A stretch of 64,000 nt of DNA from Armatimonadota bacterium (GTDB lineage: Bacteria; Sysuimicrobiota; Sysuimicrobiia; Sysuimicrobiales; Kaftiobacteriaceae), in NCBI GenBank assembly GCA_031459765.1, contig JAVKHY010000002.1:62001-126000 (forward strand), given 5' to 3'. How positions within the stretch are numbered: position 1 is the first letter of the stretch; each line of letters starts with the position of its first letter. The notes beneath the pieces were generated by a model. The model worked only from the letters and a program-made list of their open reading frames with translations, was not told the origin of the DNA and ran no database searches. Made by a program: the position numbers and the translations under genes. Of the stretch, positions 33,677 through 44,184 are shown in pieces.

Positions 33677-34468
33677 CTAGCAGGCGAACCTCGACGCAGA
33701 GGGTACGGAGCCGGCGAGGGCTGCCTCGATCTCGGCGATGACGGCTGCCGCGGCGGCGAGCGGGTCGCGGGCGCGGACAATGGGGCGGCCGACAACCAGG
33801 AAGTCGGCACCGGCCCTCACCGCCTCTGCCGGGGTCGCCGTCCTGCGCTGGTCGTCGGTGACGGCGCCTGCTGCGGAGGGAGGAAGACGGATTCCCGGTG
33901 TGACGACGACGAACCCGCGGCCGCACCGGTCTTTGATCGCCGCGCACTCCCGGGGCGAGCAGACGACCCCGTCCAGTCCGCACGACCGCGCCACCTCGGC
34001 GGCGGATACCGCCCGGTGGACGAGATCGCCGGTATCGGGATCGCTGGTGAGCAGGGTCACGCCGATCAGCACGGGTCTGGTCCATCCCGGCGCCCGGGAT
34101 CCGGCCGGCGCCGCCGCGGCGCAGGCCGCCACCGCAGCGCGCAACATGGCCTCTCCACCCGCGGTGTGGACGTTCACCATGGCCACCCCAAGCCCCGCGG
34201 CGACGGCCACGGCGCCCGCCACGGTGGTGGGGATGTCGTGGAACTTCAGATCCAGGAACACCCGCCCGCCTGCGTCGTGGACCAGCGCCACCGCCGCCGG
34301 CCCCGCCGCCGTGAACAACTGGGAACCGATCTTGAACCACGAGACAGCCGGCCGCAGCCGCCCGACGAGGACCGCCGCCGCGGCCAGGTCGGGCACGTCC
34401 AGAGCCACGATCAGTCGGTCCGCGGCGGAGAGCCCGGACAGGCCGGAGGATGGCGGCTGCCGACTCAT
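33677..34468 (-). CDS. pyrF: Orotidine 5'-phosphate decarboxylase
   Basis: 263 residues. Last step of UMP synthesis (OMP to UMP). The catalytic signature FLDLKFHDIPTTV gives the Asp-x-Lys-x-x-Asp array. LIVALDVPDLAAA is the first strand, VVTPGIRL and FLVVGRPIV form the phosphate site. ATG 34468 overlaps the pyrD stop (ATGA). Last gene of pyrBCDF; the hpt promoter lies just downstream. Confidence 0.95.
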   Translation of the reverse strand: MSRQPPSSGLSGLSAADRLIVALDVPDLAAAAVLVGRLRPAVSWFKIGSQLFTAAGPAAVALVHDAGGRVFLDLKFHDIPTTVAGAVAVAAGLGVAMVNVHTAGGEAMLRAAVAACAAAAPAGSRAPGWTRPVLIGVTLLTSDPDTGDLVHRAVSAAEVARSCGLDGVVCSPRECAAIKDRCGRGFVVVTPGIRLPPSAAGAVTDDQRRTATPAEAVRAGADFLVVGRPIVRARDPLAAAAAVIAEIEAALAGSVPSASRFAC

Positions 34469-35430
34469 TCCGCGCCCCCGCCGCGCTCGCCCAGGGAGCC
34501 GATGATCTCCTCCAGCGACCGCGCCCGGGAAGCCTCCAGGTAGGCCGCCAGGCCGGAGCGGATCTCCTCGGCGACGCGGGGATTATCGATGACCGCCGTT
34601 CCCACGGCCACCGCCCGCGCCCCGGCGATGAGGAACTCCAGGGCATGCTCGGCGGTCGCAATCCCGCCGGCGCCGATCACCGGCAGACGCGACGCCGAGG
34701 CCACGCGCCAGGTCAGGTAGACGGCGACGGGGCGGATGGCCGGCCCGGACAGACCTCCCGCGATCGTGCCGAGTCGGGACCGCCGCGTCCGGACATCGAC
34801 GGCCGTGCCGATCAAAGTGTTGGCCACGGTGAGGGCGTGCGCCCCGGCGTCTTCGGCGGCCCGGGCGATCACCGCGATGTCGGTGACGTTCGGCGTCAGC
34901 TTCACCCAGATCGGGAGGGTCGCCGCTTCGCGCACCGCGGAGACCAGCTCGGCGGTCAGGCGCGGATCGACCCCGAAGGTCAGGCCGGCTTCGACGTTCG
35001 GACAGGAGACGTTGAGTTCGACGGCGGCGACCCCCGGCTCGGCGCTCAGCAGCCGCGCCAGGGTGACGAACTCCGTCACGCTGTGTCCTGCGACACTGAC
35101 GATGACGGGGATGCCCAGCGTGCGCAGGAACGGCATCTCGCGCAGGAGGAATCCGGCGATCCCGGGGTTGGGCAGTCCCAGCGAATTCAGGTAGCCGCCC
35201 TCGACCTTCACCAGGTGCGGGAGCGGGTTGCCCCCGCGCGGGTCGAGGGTGACGGACTTGGTGATGAACCCGGCGAAGGCGCGCAGGTCCGTGGTGGCCC
35301 GGGCCTCGCGGCCAAAGCCCAACGGGCCGGGGGCGGCCAGCACCGGATGGGCGAAGCGGATGCCGGCGATCTCGACCGCGAGCTGCGGTGCCGCCGTGGG
35401 GCGGTCGGGAGCCAGGGCAGGCTCGGGCAT
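34465..35430 (-). CDS. pyrD: Dihydroorotate dehydrogenase, class 1
   Basis: 321-residue flavoenzyme oxidising dihydroorotate to orotate. The class 1 active-site cysteine is in VELNVSCPNVEAGL. PVLAAPGPLGFG, KSVTLDPRGGNPLPHL, GYLNSLGLPNPG and the FMN site VIGAGGIATAEHALEF and GARAVAVGTAV are present. Sequence style fits class 1B, which normally needs a PyrK electron-transfer subunit; no pyrK is in the window. It starts at the base next to the pyrC stop. Confidence 0.94.
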   Translation of the reverse strand: MPEPALAPDRPTAAPQLAVEIAGIRFAHPVLAAPGPLGFGREARATTDLRAFAGFITKSVTLDPRGGNPLPHLVKVEGGYLNSLGLPNPGIAGFLLREMPFLRTLGIPVIVSVAGHSVTEFVTLARLLSAEPGVAAVELNVSCPNVEAGLTFGVDPRLTAELVSAVREAATLPIWVKLTPNVTDIAVIARAAEDAGAHALTVANTLIGTAVDVRTRRSRLGTIAGGLSGPAIRPVAVYLTWRVASASRLPVIGAGGIATAEHALEFLIAGARAVAVGTAVIDNPRVAEEIRSGLAAYLEASRARSLEEIIGSLGERGGGAE

Positions 35431-36729
35431 CTACGCCGTCACCTCCGCCCCGACCAGGTCGTGGGTCACCCTGCCCCCGACCATCGTCAGGACGGCGCGC
35501 CCTCTCAGGGTCCAGCCCTCGAAGGGGGTGTTGCGACTCCGGGAGGCAAAGGCCTCGGCGCGGACGGTCCAGGCGAGGTGCGGGTCGATGATCACGAGGT
35601 CGGCGGGGTCGCCGGGCCGCAGGCTGCCGCCGGGCAGGCCGAGGAGCTGCGCCGGGCGGGTGCTCATCCTCCGGACGGCCTCGGGCAAGGTCAGGATGCC
35701 GGGGCCGACCAGGTGGGTGAGGACCACCCCCAGCGCGGTTTCCAGCCCGATCACCCCGAAGGGGGCGCGGTCGAACTCCACGCGCTTCTCTTCCACGGCG
35801 TGGGGGGCGTGGTCGGTGGCGATCACGTCGATCGTCCCGTCCGCCAGCGCCTGGCGCAGCGCCGCCAGGTCCGCGGCCGTGCGCAGCGGAGGGTTCATCT
35901 TGCGATTGGTATCGAACTCCCCCACGTCGGCGTCGGTCAGCGTGAGGTGATGGGGAGTGACCTCGGCGGACACCGGCACGCCGCGCTGTTTCGCCTCGCG
36001 GATCAGCCGCACGCTGGCTGCGGCACTGACATGCGCGATGTGCAATCGCGCGCCGGTGGCCTCCGCCAGGAGGAGATCCCGGGCCACGATCACCGCCTCG
36101 CTCTCGGAGGGGATGCCGACCAGCCCCAGCCGGGCGGCCTGGCCCCCGTCGTGCACCACGCCGCTCCCGGAGAGCGAAGCGTCCTCGCAGTGCTCGATGA
36201 TGGGCAGCCCGACCATCCGGGCGTAGCCCATGGCGCGCCGCAGCAGCCCGGCGTCCGGCACCGCCGCCCCGTCGTCGGACAGCGCCACCGCGCCGGCGGC
36301 GGCCAGGGCGGCGATCGGACTCAACTCCCGTCCCTGCAATCCTTTGGTGATCGCCGCCACGGGATAGACCCGGCAGGCGGCCACCTCGCGGGCGCGACTG
36401 CGCAGGTATTCCACCACGACGGGATGGTCCACCGGCGGGACGGTGTTGGCCATGCAGGCCACGGCCGTATACCCGCCCTGCGCGGCGGCGCGCGACCCCG
36501 TGCCCAGGTCTTCCTTGTGCGTCTGCCCGGGATCGCGCAGATGGACGTGCATGTCGATCAGGCCCGGGGCCACCACCAGCCCTCCGGCGTCCAGGACGTC
36601 GCACCCGGCGGCCGGCAGATCCGGCGCGACGGCCTCGATCCGGCCTCCCCGGATCAGGACATCGGCCACCGCATCGAACTCCCTGGAAGGATCGACCACG
36701 CGGCCGCCGCGGATCAGCACGTCGGACAC
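35431..36729 (-). CDS. pyrC: Dihydroorotase
   Basis: 432-residue zinc amidohydrolase, cyclising carbamoyl-aspartate to dihydroorotate. Metal ligands include the HVH pair in GLIDMHVHLRDPGQ (residues 61 and 63), the His of IIEHCED, LHIAHVS and the catalytic Asp in ATDHAPH. NRKMNPPLRT binds substrate. GTG 36729 lies 1 nt after the pyrB stop. Sequence type matches class I bacterial PyrC that often works next to aspartate carbamoyltransferase. Confidence 0.96.
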   Translation of the reverse strand: MSDVLIRGGRVVDPSREFDAVADVLIRGGRIEAVAPDLPAAGCDVLDAGGLVVAPGLIDMHVHLRDPGQTHKEDLGTGSRAAAQGGYTAVACMANTVPPVDHPVVVEYLRSRAREVAACRVYPVAAITKGLQGRELSPIAALAAAGAVALSDDGAAVPDAGLLRRAMGYARMVGLPIIEHCEDASLSGSGVVHDGGQAARLGLVGIPSESEAVIVARDLLLAEATGARLHIAHVSAAASVRLIREAKQRGVPVSAEVTPHHLTLTDADVGEFDTNRKMNPPLRTAADLAALRQALADGTIDVIATDHAPHAVEEKRVEFDRAPFGVIGLETALGVVLTHLVGPGILTLPEAVRRMSTRPAQLLGLPGGSLRPGDPADLVIIDPHLAWTVRAEAFASRSRNTPFEGWTLRGRAVLTMVGGRVTHDLVGAEVTA

Positions 36730-36730
36730 C

Positions 36731-37708
36731 TCAGTGCACCTCGACGGCCTCGGGCCGCGCCCGGCCGCGGCTGATCTCCCCCGCCGCCGTCGCCGCAGCC
36801 GGGAGCTCCGCGCCCGCCCCGCGGCCCAGCGCCCACTGGATCGCGGCCATGCGCACGCAGACACCGTTTGCCACCTGGCGACGGATCACCGAGCGCGGAC
36901 CCTCGGCTACTGCGGCGCCGAGTTCCACGCCCAGGTTGACCGGACCGGGATGCATCACGACGCAGTCGGGCCGGGCGAGGGCCAGCCTCTCCTCCGTCAG
37001 GCCGAAGGTGCGGGCGTACTCGGCCAGCGTGGGCAGGGCCCCCCCGGCCTGGCGTTCCAGCTGCACCCGCAGCGCCATCACGACGTCCGCACCGGCCAGG
37101 GCGTCGGCCAGGGACGCCGTCACCGCGACGCCGGGAACCGGTGGAGCCGCCGGCAGCAGGGTCGCCGGGCCGGCCAGGACCACCGACGCCCCCAGTTTGG
37201 CGAAGCCCCACGCCGCCGAACGCGCCACCCGCGAGTGAAGGATGTCCCCGACAATGGCCACCTTCAGGCCGGCGATGCGCCCTTTCACCTGGCGGACGGT
37301 GAGGAGATCCACCAGCCCCTGGGTCGGATGCTCGTGCATCCCGTCGCCGGCGTTGATGACGGCGCACCCGACATGGCGCGCCACGAGATGCGGCGCGCCG
37401 CTGCTGGGATGACGGATGACCAGGGCGTCGGCCCCCAGGGCCTCGAAGGTCCGCACCGTATCGAGGAAGGATTCCCCTTTGCGGACGCTGCTGTGCTCCA
37501 CGGCGCAGGGGAGGACCTCAGCCCCCAGCCGCCGCGCGGCCAGGATGAACGACATCTCGGTCCGCGTGCTGGGCTCGTAGAACAACATGGCCACCGTGGC
37601 GCCCGCCGGCGAGGGGGGCGCCTCGCCGTCCCGGAGGCGCTGCGCGGCATCCAGCAGGGTGACAATGGTTCCGGGATCGAGGTCGCGCAGGGCCAGCAGA
37701 TGACGCAT
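36731..37708 (-). CDS. pyrB: Aspartate carbamoyltransferase catalytic subunit, with an altered STRTR motif
   Basis: 325 residues, first committed step of pyrimidine synthesis. HPTQGLVDLLT, VAIVGDILHSRVARS, MALRVQLERQ and VVMHPGPVNLGVE are canonical. The carbamoyl-phosphate motif, normally S-T-R-T-R, reads EPSTRTEMSF: the second Arg is Glu (E51). The codon is clear in the DNA, so this is not a reading-frame effect. ATG 37708 follows a G-rich Shine-Dalgarno and a leader with an attenuator-like hairpin. No regulatory subunit pyrI is seen. Confidence 0.95.
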   Translation of the reverse strand: MRHLLALRDLDPGTIVTLLDAAQRLRDGEAPPSPAGATVAMLFYEPSTRTEMSFILAARRLGAEVLPCAVEHSSVRKGESFLDTVRTFEALGADALVIRHPSSGAPHLVARHVGCAVINAGDGMHEHPTQGLVDLLTVRQVKGRIAGLKVAIVGDILHSRVARSAAWGFAKLGASVVLAGPATLLPAAPPVPGVAVTASLADALAGADVVMALRVQLERQAGGALPTLAEYARTFGLTEERLALARPDCVVMHPGPVNLGVELGAAVAEGPRSVIRRQVANGVCVRMAAIQWALGRGAGAELPAAATAAGEISRGRARPEAVEVH

Positions 37709-37735
37709 CAGGGCGTCCCCCGGGAGGCGAGAGGT

Positions 37736-37775
37736 GATAAAAGAGAAAGGGGCGGAAGGATCACTCCTCCGCCCC
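37736..37775 (-). terminator. Intrinsic terminator/attenuator in the pyrB leader
   Basis: On the minus strand an 11-bp stem (GGGGCGGAGGA against TCC-T-TCCGCCCC, one bulged T) with a GTGA tetraloop spans 37749-37775. It is followed by a U-rich tract (TTTCTCTTTT, 37739-37748). It lies between the pyr promoter and pyrB, 28 nt before the start codon, and so can only serve as a conditional terminator for the pyr operon. Confidence 0.88.
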
Positions 37776-37817
37776 GGGGATCATGTTCAGGTGATCGACA
37801 GGTCATCGGAGCCCTTT

Positions 37818-37835
37818 CCGGCCTCGCAGTGCCGG
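37818..37835 (-). promoter_or_regulatory. PyrR-binding-loop-like hairpin in the pyr leader
   Basis: On the minus strand CCGGC (37831-37835) and GCCGG (37818-37822) close an 8-nt loop ACTGCGAG. The loop and the right-hand stem contain CNGNGAGGY, the core of the RNA consensus bound by PyrR in Bacillus pyr leaders. It stands upstream of the terminator hairpin, where an anti-antiterminator would be. pyrR itself is not in the window. Confidence 0.55.
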
Positions 37836-37853
37836 CTTAAAGAGTTCGCCCGT

Positions 37854-37882
37854 ACTTTAGCACGCCCCGCAGGGCCCGTCAA
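37854..37882 (-). promoter_or_regulatory. Promoter of pyrBCDF
   Basis: On the minus strand TTGACG (37877-37882) and TAAAGT (37854-37859) are separated by 17 bp. Transcription would begin near 37847, giving a leader of about 140 nt that contains the hairpins at 37818-37835 and 37749-37775. Confidence 0.85.
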
Positions 37883-38819: not shown

Positions 38820-40349
38820 TTACCAGGAGGTGGTGACCTCCAGGCGATACCGGTGCGTGGCCACCGTGCCGGGCGGGGTCTCGCGCCGCTGGTAGCGGAA
38901 GCGCCCCGTGACGCCCGACGTGATCTGGCTGAAGAAGCCGAGCTCGAGTTCGGTCTGGCCGACGCCGGTGGAGATGACCGAGCCGGACTCGTAGTTGACA
39001 TACGGTCGGAACTGCGGGCTGAAGGTCAGACTCAGCTGCACGTTCCAGGCCTGGTAGTTGGTCGTGCTGCCGATGCCGAACAGGTCGTTGCCGCCGCGGT
39101 AGATGGGCAGGTAGCCGTTGCCGTAGTTCTTGTACTGGATGCGCAGCGTGGGGCTGAACTGCGTCATCCCGGTCAACTGGCCGAGGTTCCAGACCGTGTT
39201 GACCTGGTAAGCGGCCACGGCGCTGCCGCCCGACGGCGTCCACGACGCGTACTCCGCGGTGAGCGTGACGCCAGGGATGATCGTCCCGCTGACGTCCACC
39301 GACCAGCCGCTGTTGACCGCGTTCGGGGTCAACGGAGCGGTGGCGAGGCCGTTGGTCCGCTCGGACAGGTAGTTCAGGCCGAAGGTCCAGCCGGGCATGA
39401 GCGCCATCGACCCGCGGACGGTGTAGATGTTCTGGAGGACGTTGATGGCCGCAGGGTTGTAGACGTAGGCGAACCCCGCCACCTCAAAACTGACCGGGCC
39501 GAAGCTGCCGGTGACCTTGAGGCCGTCGATGCCGACGGAGTCGCCGCCGTAAACGGCCACCGAGCCCTCGCGGAACAGCAGGCCGATCGGGCCCAGCGTG
39601 TAGGTCTGCTTGCCCAGGCGCCAGTTGAGGCCGTAGGCGGCCACGTCGATGTAGGCGCGGTCGAAGGTCACGCCGACGATGGGATAGCCCCCGCCGTCAA
39701 CGTTGTTGAGGGCCACGCCGGTCGTCGTCGAGCAGCCACTCCCGGTGGGCGTGACGCTGCTGCTGGTGCCGGCGCCGAAGGCGAAGATACCGCCATCGCA
39801 GGTATCGAGCAGCATGTTGACCGTCGCCGAGGCGGTAGAGCTGATCCGCCCGGTGAAGGTCAGGTTGAACAGGCCGAAGGTGTAGTTCTGCCCGTTCAGG
39901 ATGTTGGACTGGTGCCGGAAGAAGGCGAACCCGGCCACCTTGGTGTTGTCCAGCCGGTCCCGCAGGGCCGCCAGGTCCTCCTCCACCGCCGTGACGCGCA
40001 CGCCGAGCGCGGCCAGTTCTGCGCGGAACTCGTTGATCAGCCGCTGCAGCGTGGTGATGTCCGCCCGGGTGACCTCGATCTTGGGCGGCGGCGGCGGCGG
40101 CGGAATCTTGATCGCCTCGATGCGGGCCAGGATTCTGGCCACGACCATGGCGATCTCGTAACGGGTCATCGCCCGATCGCCCTTGAAGGTTCCGTCGGGG
40201 TAGCCCTCGACGATACCCTTCGCAGCCAGTTCCGCGATCGCGTCGAAGGCCCAGTGATCGGTGGGCACGTCGGCGAAGGGCTGGCTGAAGGCGGGGGAGA
40301 CGACCGCGAGCACGAGCGTTGCTGCGATGGCTACTGCCAGCTTCCTCAT
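38820..40349 (-). CDS. SLH-domain outer-membrane porin (OmpM/SlpA type)
   Basis: 509 residues. A signal peptide (AIAATLVLAVVSPAFS) is followed by one SLH domain (about residues 24-75: FADVPTDHWAFDAIAELAAKG, MTRYEIAMVVARIL), a poly-Pro break (PPPPPPP), a coiled coil (about 95-135) and a roughly 370-residue beta-barrel of amphipathic strands ending in Trp (VTTSW), the usual outer-membrane sorting signal. Proteins of this plan tether the outer membrane to secondary cell-wall polymers or peptidoglycan in Negativicutes and Deinococcota and serve as porins. ATG 40349. A 424-nt non-coding region lies upstream and a strong terminator downstream, so it is transcribed alone and probably abundantly. Confidence 0.92.
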   Translation of the reverse strand: MRKLAVAIAATLVLAVVSPAFSQPFADVPTDHWAFDAIAELAAKGIVEGYPDGTFKGDRAMTRYEIAMVVARILARIEAIKIPPPPPPPKIEVTRADITTLQRLINEFRAELAALGVRVTAVEEDLAALRDRLDNTKVAGFAFFRHQSNILNGQNYTFGLFNLTFTGRISSTASATVNMLLDTCDGGIFAFGAGTSSSVTPTGSGCSTTTGVALNNVDGGGYPIVGVTFDRAYIDVAAYGLNWRLGKQTYTLGPIGLLFREGSVAVYGGDSVGIDGLKVTGSFGPVSFEVAGFAYVYNPAAINVLQNIYTVRGSMALMPGWTFGLNYLSERTNGLATAPLTPNAVNSGWSVDVSGTIIPGVTLTAEYASWTPSGGSAVAAYQVNTVWNLGQLTGMTQFSPTLRIQYKNYGNGYLPIYRGGNDLFGIGSTTNYQAWNVQLSLTFSPQFRPYVNYESGSVISTGVGQTELELGFFSQITSGVTGRFRYQRRETPPGTVATHRYRLEVTTSW

Positions 40350-43878: not shown

Positions 43879-43916
43879 ACCGCCCACCTCCTCTGCCTCG
43901 AAGGCGTGTGGCGAAT

Positions 43917-44082
43917 GGTGCAGGCAGGTCTTCTGGCTTCCGGGTCATCGGAGCATCCCCGGCCTTCCCGGATTGGCATCCAGTGGCGTTGTCGGGGAGC
44001 CTCGCCGGTTACAGCGGCGGGACCGCGCCGGAATCACACCGGCTTCCCTTCTCGGCTCCGCAGAGCGGAGCCACCCTGCACC
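43917..44082 (-). ncRNA. Cobalamin riboswitch
   Basis: Minus-strand RNA with the conserved B12 elements: an outer stem GGTGCAGG (near 44081) against CCTGCACC (near 43917), CCGGTGTGATTCCGGCGC, CCCGCCGCTGTAACCGG, the B12 box GCCACTGGATGCC (about 43975-43987) and GAAGCCAGAAGACCTGCC (43923-43940). Downstream, CGCCAC (43908-43913) can pair with GTGGGCG (43881-43887) next to the Shine-Dalgarno, so control is probably at translation initiation. Confidence 0.96.
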
Positions 44083-44184
44083 GTCACGCTGAGTTCTCGG
44101 CGGGAGACGGGGTTCCTGCCTCGCCGGGTCAGAGGTGTCGGGTCGAAGTTCGTCGGTTTGAAGGTCGCCGGCCGCCGGAGCGGA

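Follow-up and report, generated by a model that had tools for sequence, protein, structure and literature searches.

PyrR attenuation is taught as the RNA antiterminator switch of Bacillus. Mycobacterium smegmatis uses PyrR for translational repression, with the hairpin lying on the Shine-Dalgarno (SD) sequence of the regulated gene, and E. coli pyrBI senses UTP via polymerase pausing, with no PyrR. For the pyrR-pyrB leader of Thermus strain ZO5, Van de Casteele et al. reportedly proposed in 1997 a PyrR attenuation without antiterminator, in which a translating ribosome prevents the terminator; the literature searched held no paper on a PyrR leader peptide in Thermus. According to the Bacillus logic, segments A and B form the PyrR-stabilised anti-antiterminator and segments B and C the antiterminator (PMC7430163).

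The leader of the pyrBCDF operon in the stretch of 64,000 nucleotides that we analysed (the window) can be compared with all four. As in M. smegmatis, the predicted PyrR hairpin sequesters an SD sequence, but here the SD belongs to a short leader ORF that contains the terminator, not to a structural gene. As in E. coli pyrBI, a ribosome on the leader ORF would prevent the terminator ahead of pyrB, and stop and start codons lie close together, whereas in the window the leader SD lies within a PyrR site. At the level of layout, the Thermus arrangement reportedly also has a leader ORF behind the PyrR site and a ribosome preventing the terminator; pyrR comes first in the operon there, whereas here it is unlinked and the ORF overlaps pyrB. 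With the Bacillus subtilis pyr attenuators (RF00515; PMC7430163) the window shares the binding-loop consensus, a UUUAA-containing internal bulge, the order of hairpin then terminator and a homologous PyrR. Unlike them, it has no convincing RNA antiterminator, a leader ORF through the terminator, one site and not three, and a pyrR outside the operon.

The operon lies on the minus strand and comprises pyrB (aspartate carbamoyltransferase, 36731-37708; NF002032, 350 bits against a cut-off of 263), pyrC (dihydroorotase, 35431-36735; TIGR00857, 438 bits, cut-off 279), pyrD (dihydroorotate dehydrogenase, 34465-35430; NF005574, 350 bits, cut-off 269) and pyrF (OMP decarboxylase, 33677-34468; NF001273, 234 bits, cut-off 193). 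Sequence inspection and a promoter scan placed a TTGACG-17-TAAAGT promoter with an extended -10 TG at 37882-37854 (minus strand); over the 5.5 kb scanned, 2 promoter-like sites were seen and 0.1 expected. Transcription is expected to start at about 37847, immediately ahead of the hairpin. Closer to pyrB, on the same strand, is an intrinsic terminator (37775-37749, -21 kcal/mol, a 10-11 bp stem with one bulge and a GTGA loop) followed by its U-rich tail TTTCTCTTTT (37748-37739). A previous sequence-only reading of this DNA had described a good promoter at 37854-37882, a hairpin whose loop has the CNGNGAGGY core of PyrR binding loops and a strong terminator with GTGA loop and U-tract, in that order before pyrBCDF on the minus strand. 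Our analysis confirmed this description throughout, save for an A.G loop-closing pair in the hairpin. The folding energy of the entire leader was unremarkable (z = -1.5, leader alone) and was dropped as evidence.

The predicted PyrR-binding hairpin (anti-antiterminator; 37811-37847, minus strand) was identified by RF00515, a leave-one-out model and covariation across 19 sites. Its stems span 37844-37812 (lower stem 37844-37839/37817-37812, upper stem 37835-37831/37822-37818), its loop CUGCGA occupies 37829-37824, and the UUUAA bulge, the CNGNGAGGY core of the ARUCCNGNGAGGYU-type loop and the stems are all present. The Rfam model RF00515 matched 37847-37737 with 24.6 bits. That is less than its gathering score of 54, a cut-off for detecting the full 115-nt leader rather than a functional feature; just 1 of the 43 phylum genomes exceeds it. 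Across the 2.8 Mb genome, RF00515 matched nowhere else at E<=10. In one relative (G012), a match of 21.6 bits ahead of a cysteine desulfurase-like gene was judged to be due to chance.

We aligned 19 PyrR-type hairpins, found upstream of pyrB or pyrR in the window, its relatives and other phyla. Ten stem pairs gave 189 paired cells out of 190, with 16 double changes; none of 500 shuffles was as good as the real pairing and no slid register came close. A covariance model built on the 18 other sites (R3), with the window left out, ranked the window hairpin first genome-wide (28.5 bits, E 0.0027), the runner-up reaching 17.7 bits (E 1.46). Covariation across the 19 sites and first rank in the leave-one-out model argue for a real PyrR-type site with one deviation, and we are confident that the window leader is of PyrR type. 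The deviation is the loop-closing A37830.G37823 mismatch, the only unpaired cell of the 190, with C changed to A at a near-invariant position. Since A37830 departs from this consensus, the affinity of PyrR for the window loop is uncertain; the change may weaken binding or may be an assembly error.

The sequence-only reading had placed the binding protein, if any, outside the window, and a genome search indeed found pyrR unlinked on another contig (G000:C7:103268-103792; 228 bits to NF003549, cut-off 138). The gene lies outside the pyr operon, behind a pseudouridine synthase gene (PF00849 plus S4) that is presumably rluD. Its product matches B. caldolyticus PyrR 1non with 205 bits. The segment DRGHRELPIRPDFVGKN and the AHE motif, which reportedly include RNA-contact residues of PyrR (Savacool and Switzer 2002), are intact. 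Two further candidates, L002 and L001, were rejected as PyrR, both being hypoxanthine-type phosphoribosyltransferases. Diderm markers are present in the genome (Omp85, 146 bits; TonB C-terminus, 61 bits). The proposal of a PyrR-type attenuator in a diderm genome thus held for the leader type and for the host, and in part for the Bacillus mechanism discussed below. A diderm host is unsurprising because MAGs from several other diderm lineages at phylum level also have this loop ahead of pyrR-pyrB.

Conservation was examined in 43 genomes of the phylum, from one order and seven families. CSP1-3/Sysuimicrobiota has been described as one class with one order (PMC11604079), and is probably the phylum of these genomes. 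The gene pyrR is present in 39 of the 43. A PyrR hairpin lies directly before pyrB in the window and in all nine other genomes with a readable pyrB leader, at up to 55 bits in these relatives, so that the hairpins of the sequence-only reading proved conserved, with strong covariation. PyrR sites were also found ahead of pyrD (G001, G014), pyrR-pyrB (G018), an AsnRS-like gene (G003, G014) and an amidohydrolase gene (six genomes of family f2). Family f4 (G022-G033) showed no PyrR hairpin at pyrB or pyrR loci; all 12 of its genomes contain pyrR, and the product retains the conserved PyrR segments.

The sequence-only reading did not mention that the 3' strand of the hairpin can act as the SD of an ORF through the terminator. 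This strand contains AAAGG (37813-37817, minus strand), a modest SD-like sequence (anti-SD duplex -4.7 kcal/mol) sequestered by CUUU of the lower stem. Six nucleotides beyond it, an ATG opens a leader ORF of 32 codons (MTCRSPEHDPRGGGVILPPLSLLSPLASRGTP; 37708-37806, minus strand), which spans the whole terminator and whose TGA stop (37710-37708) overlaps the pyrB ATG as TGATG. We defined a full ORF as an ATG 1-11 nt past AAGG whose reading frame stays open past the terminator as far as the gene start, a criterion fixed after the sequences had been inspected. Such an ORF was present in 14 of 16 terminator-bearing leaders, the chance per leader being 0.01-0.11 from dinucleotide shuffles; with one leader per genus it was present in 7 of 9 genera (P = 2.7e-8). 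The frame offset between leader ATG and gene start was identical in 13 of the 14 despite leader lengths of 94-170 nt. Stop and start codons overlap (ATGA, TTGA or TGATG) in 12 of the 14. In five of the six f2 leaders, the SD is near-perfect (AAGGAGG-N5/6-ATG). In G015, G019 and G021, the ATG lies just 1-3 nt from AAGG, below the usual spacing. The full ORF is missing in two pyrB leaders, G034, which has no ATG, and G041, which stops at the U-tract, and both carry a strong RNA antiterminator. The sequence of the leader peptide is not conserved, as would be expected if ribosome passage is what counts and not the product; codon-position changes point to weak constraint at most.

To evaluate an RNA antiterminator, pairing of the hairpin 3' strand with the terminator was compared with pairing to terminators with permuted base pairs. 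The sequence-only reading had likened the leader to Bacillus pyr attenuators; the order of elements agrees, and a pairing that overlaps both hairpin and terminator can be drawn in the window (37753-37820, minus strand; arms 37820-37808 and 37767-37753), but this candidate is weak and barely beats shuffled stems (p = 0.050). Pairing was far above shuffled stems in G034, G035, G036 and G041, of families f5/f6 (p 0.000-0.005). The five remaining f1 leaders (p 0.2-0.8) and the six f2 leaders (p 0.29-0.90) showed no pairing of this kind. The Bacillus device is thus evident in f5 and f6, and in the other leaders either in doubt or missing. Shuffling all sequence downstream of the hairpin was uninformative as a test because GC-rich shuffles pair too. 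An antiterminator on the hairpin 5' strand gave p 0.02-0.03 in G018/G019 (f1) and 0.01-0.02 in G034/G035, not in others, and was not adopted.

The reading we consider rather likely is a PyrR-dependent attenuator in which PyrR gates the ribosome. Because the PyrR site overlaps the ribosome site of the leader ORF, PyrR probably switches the operon off by excluding ribosomes, and since this ORF runs through the terminator, a ribosome is a likelier anti-termination device here than an RNA antiterminator. The f2 leaders, with a near-perfect SD and no RNA antiterminator, suggest that only the ORF can do the job in that family. Weighing against ribosome gating are the modest SD of the window, the tight SD-ATG spacing in G015, G019 and G021, the lack of a full ORF in G034 and G041, the unconserved peptide with at most weak codon constraint, and the deviation in the window loop. 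A Bacillus-type attenuator, in which 37820-37808 would pair with 37767-37753 when PyrR is absent and the ORF would be incidental or only couple translation, seems to us unlikely for the window. It would account for the strong pairing in G034, G035, G036 and G041, and in the window an 8-pair form is the MFE structure for transcript ends n = 89-92, while the stem permutation gives p = 0.05; it nevertheless predicts a pairing not seen in the other f1 leaders or in f2, and leaves the conserved ORF unexplained.

Both devices could also work together, PyrR controlling an RNA antiterminator and leader translation in one leader. Two relatives, G035 and G036, do carry a strong antiterminator plus a full ORF, but the weakness of the antiterminator in the window makes this combination distinctly improbable there. 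We give still less credit to a vestigial or PyrR-independent leader, whose loop would be decaying at A37830 and whose terminator would simply attenuate, or be relieved by translation coupling or UTP pausing like that of E. coli pyrBI. The unique mismatch at a near-invariant position, the low RF00515 score and the persistence of pyrR without sites in f4 would fit such decay. Against it, every other conserved loop, bulge and stem position is intact or paired, a PyrR with its conserved segments is retained, and the ORF and terminator are intact.

The ribosome-gated model builds on a PyrR-type site, a pyrR gene, a terminator and a conserved ORF with stop/start overlap, all read from the DNA; from these we infer PyrR binding and its ligand, ORF translation and ribosome-mediated read-through. 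The transcript would start at the PyrR hairpin, whose 3' strand holds the SD of the leader ORF. When UMP/UTP is high, UMP-bound PyrR would clamp the hairpin and the leader ORF would stay untranslated, allowing the terminator to fold and stop RNA polymerase ahead of pyrB. When pyrimidines are low, PyrR would leave and a ribosome would load right behind the polymerase; its passage across the terminator sequence would prevent the terminator fold, and transcription would proceed. The ribosome would end on the overlapping pyrB start codon and restart there, so that translation of pyrB would be coupled as well.

When 79 distant pyrB neighbourhoods were scanned with R3, about 47 yielded a PyrR hairpin, and outside the phylum three layouts occur behind these hairpins. 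In Bacillota, the hairpin is mostly not followed by a start codon. In MAGs of Acidobacteria (L059, L070, L086) and Rokubacteria (L092), the hairpin lies directly on the pyrR start. In Nitrospirae, a short ORF through the terminator ends on the pyrR start, with the order hairpin, SD, ORF, terminator and overlap as in the phylum of the window (ORF stop at +103 and pyrR ATG at +102 in L090; +194 and +193 in L076). A leader ORF also ends near the pyrR start in Nitrospinae (L065) and Armatimonadetes (L045), and FCPU426 (L051) has ORF and terminator, its pyrR start not being located.

PyrR leaders as such are not new, and ribosome gating has reportedly been proposed before, for Thermus ZO5. As far as our literature search shows, the novelty would lie in comparative evidence for ribosome gating across genera, in its apparent occurrence in several phyla and at non-pyr genes, and in RNA and ribosome devices seeming to alternate within one phylum. 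We tentatively suggest that PyrR-gated leader-ORF attenuation could be a widespread class of its own in diderms, acting at pyrB, pyrR and further genes and maybe matching the Bacillus antiterminator form in age, the CCUU/AAGG hairpin base being an SD/anti-SD pair. If true, this near-invariant base would let one site serve translational repression, ribosome-gated attenuation or attenuation by RNA only. One uncultured phylum would hold both RNA antiterminators (f5/f6) and ribosome-gated ORFs (f1/f2), and other phyla a third form, in which the pyrR start itself would be blocked; with the three forms side by side, the evolution of the output stage of an attenuator would be open to comparison. It would also extend to several phyla a proposal that is not known to us beyond Thermus.

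Several genes behind PyrR sites in relatives deserve mention. The AsnRS-like gene of G003 and G014 (L143, L146, L183, L184) encodes a class II aaRS-like protein of about 310-335 aa with a PF00152 catalytic domain; its best NCBIfam match is AsnRS (150 bits, cut-off 414). Its close homologues (67-69% identity) are confined to 4 of the 43 genomes (G003, G014, G004, G005), and the protein is possibly linked to pyrimidine or aspartate metabolism. In f2, a PyrR-type leader ORF precedes an amidohydrolase-like gene of about 420 aa (L144, L147-L150, L210), which has a sub-cut-off match to NF005365 (190 bits) and weak similarity to cytosine deaminase; in G009-G011 it adjoins a divergent carbamoyltransferase-like gene. 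No ATCase above the TIGR00670 cut-off was found in G001, G014, G020, G038-G040 and G042, whose only carbamoyltransferase match is of the ornithine type and stays below the cut-off; all keep pyrR, and G001 and G014 retain their PyrR sites before pyrD. Have the first steps of pyrimidine synthesis been lost or replaced in these genomes? A further pyrR-pyrB operon in G018, diverged from the first and likewise preceded by a PyrR leader (G018:C148; L194, L152), may stem from contamination (5%) or from operon transfer.

In the window, a perfect TTGACA-18-TATAAT promoter (33630-33601, minus strand) separates pyrF from hpt-guaB-guaA. Since hpt has this sigma-70-like promoter of its own, the purine salvage genes are probably on a separate transcript, and their control by the attenuator is less likely. 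A gene for an SLH-domain protein of 509 aa, porin-like and by eye of OmpM type, lies upstream of the pyr operon (38820-40349, minus strand); similar SLH-like genes apparently lie upstream of pyrD in G001 and G014. The window also contains a cobalamin riboswitch at 43906-44094 (minus strand, 124.9 bits).
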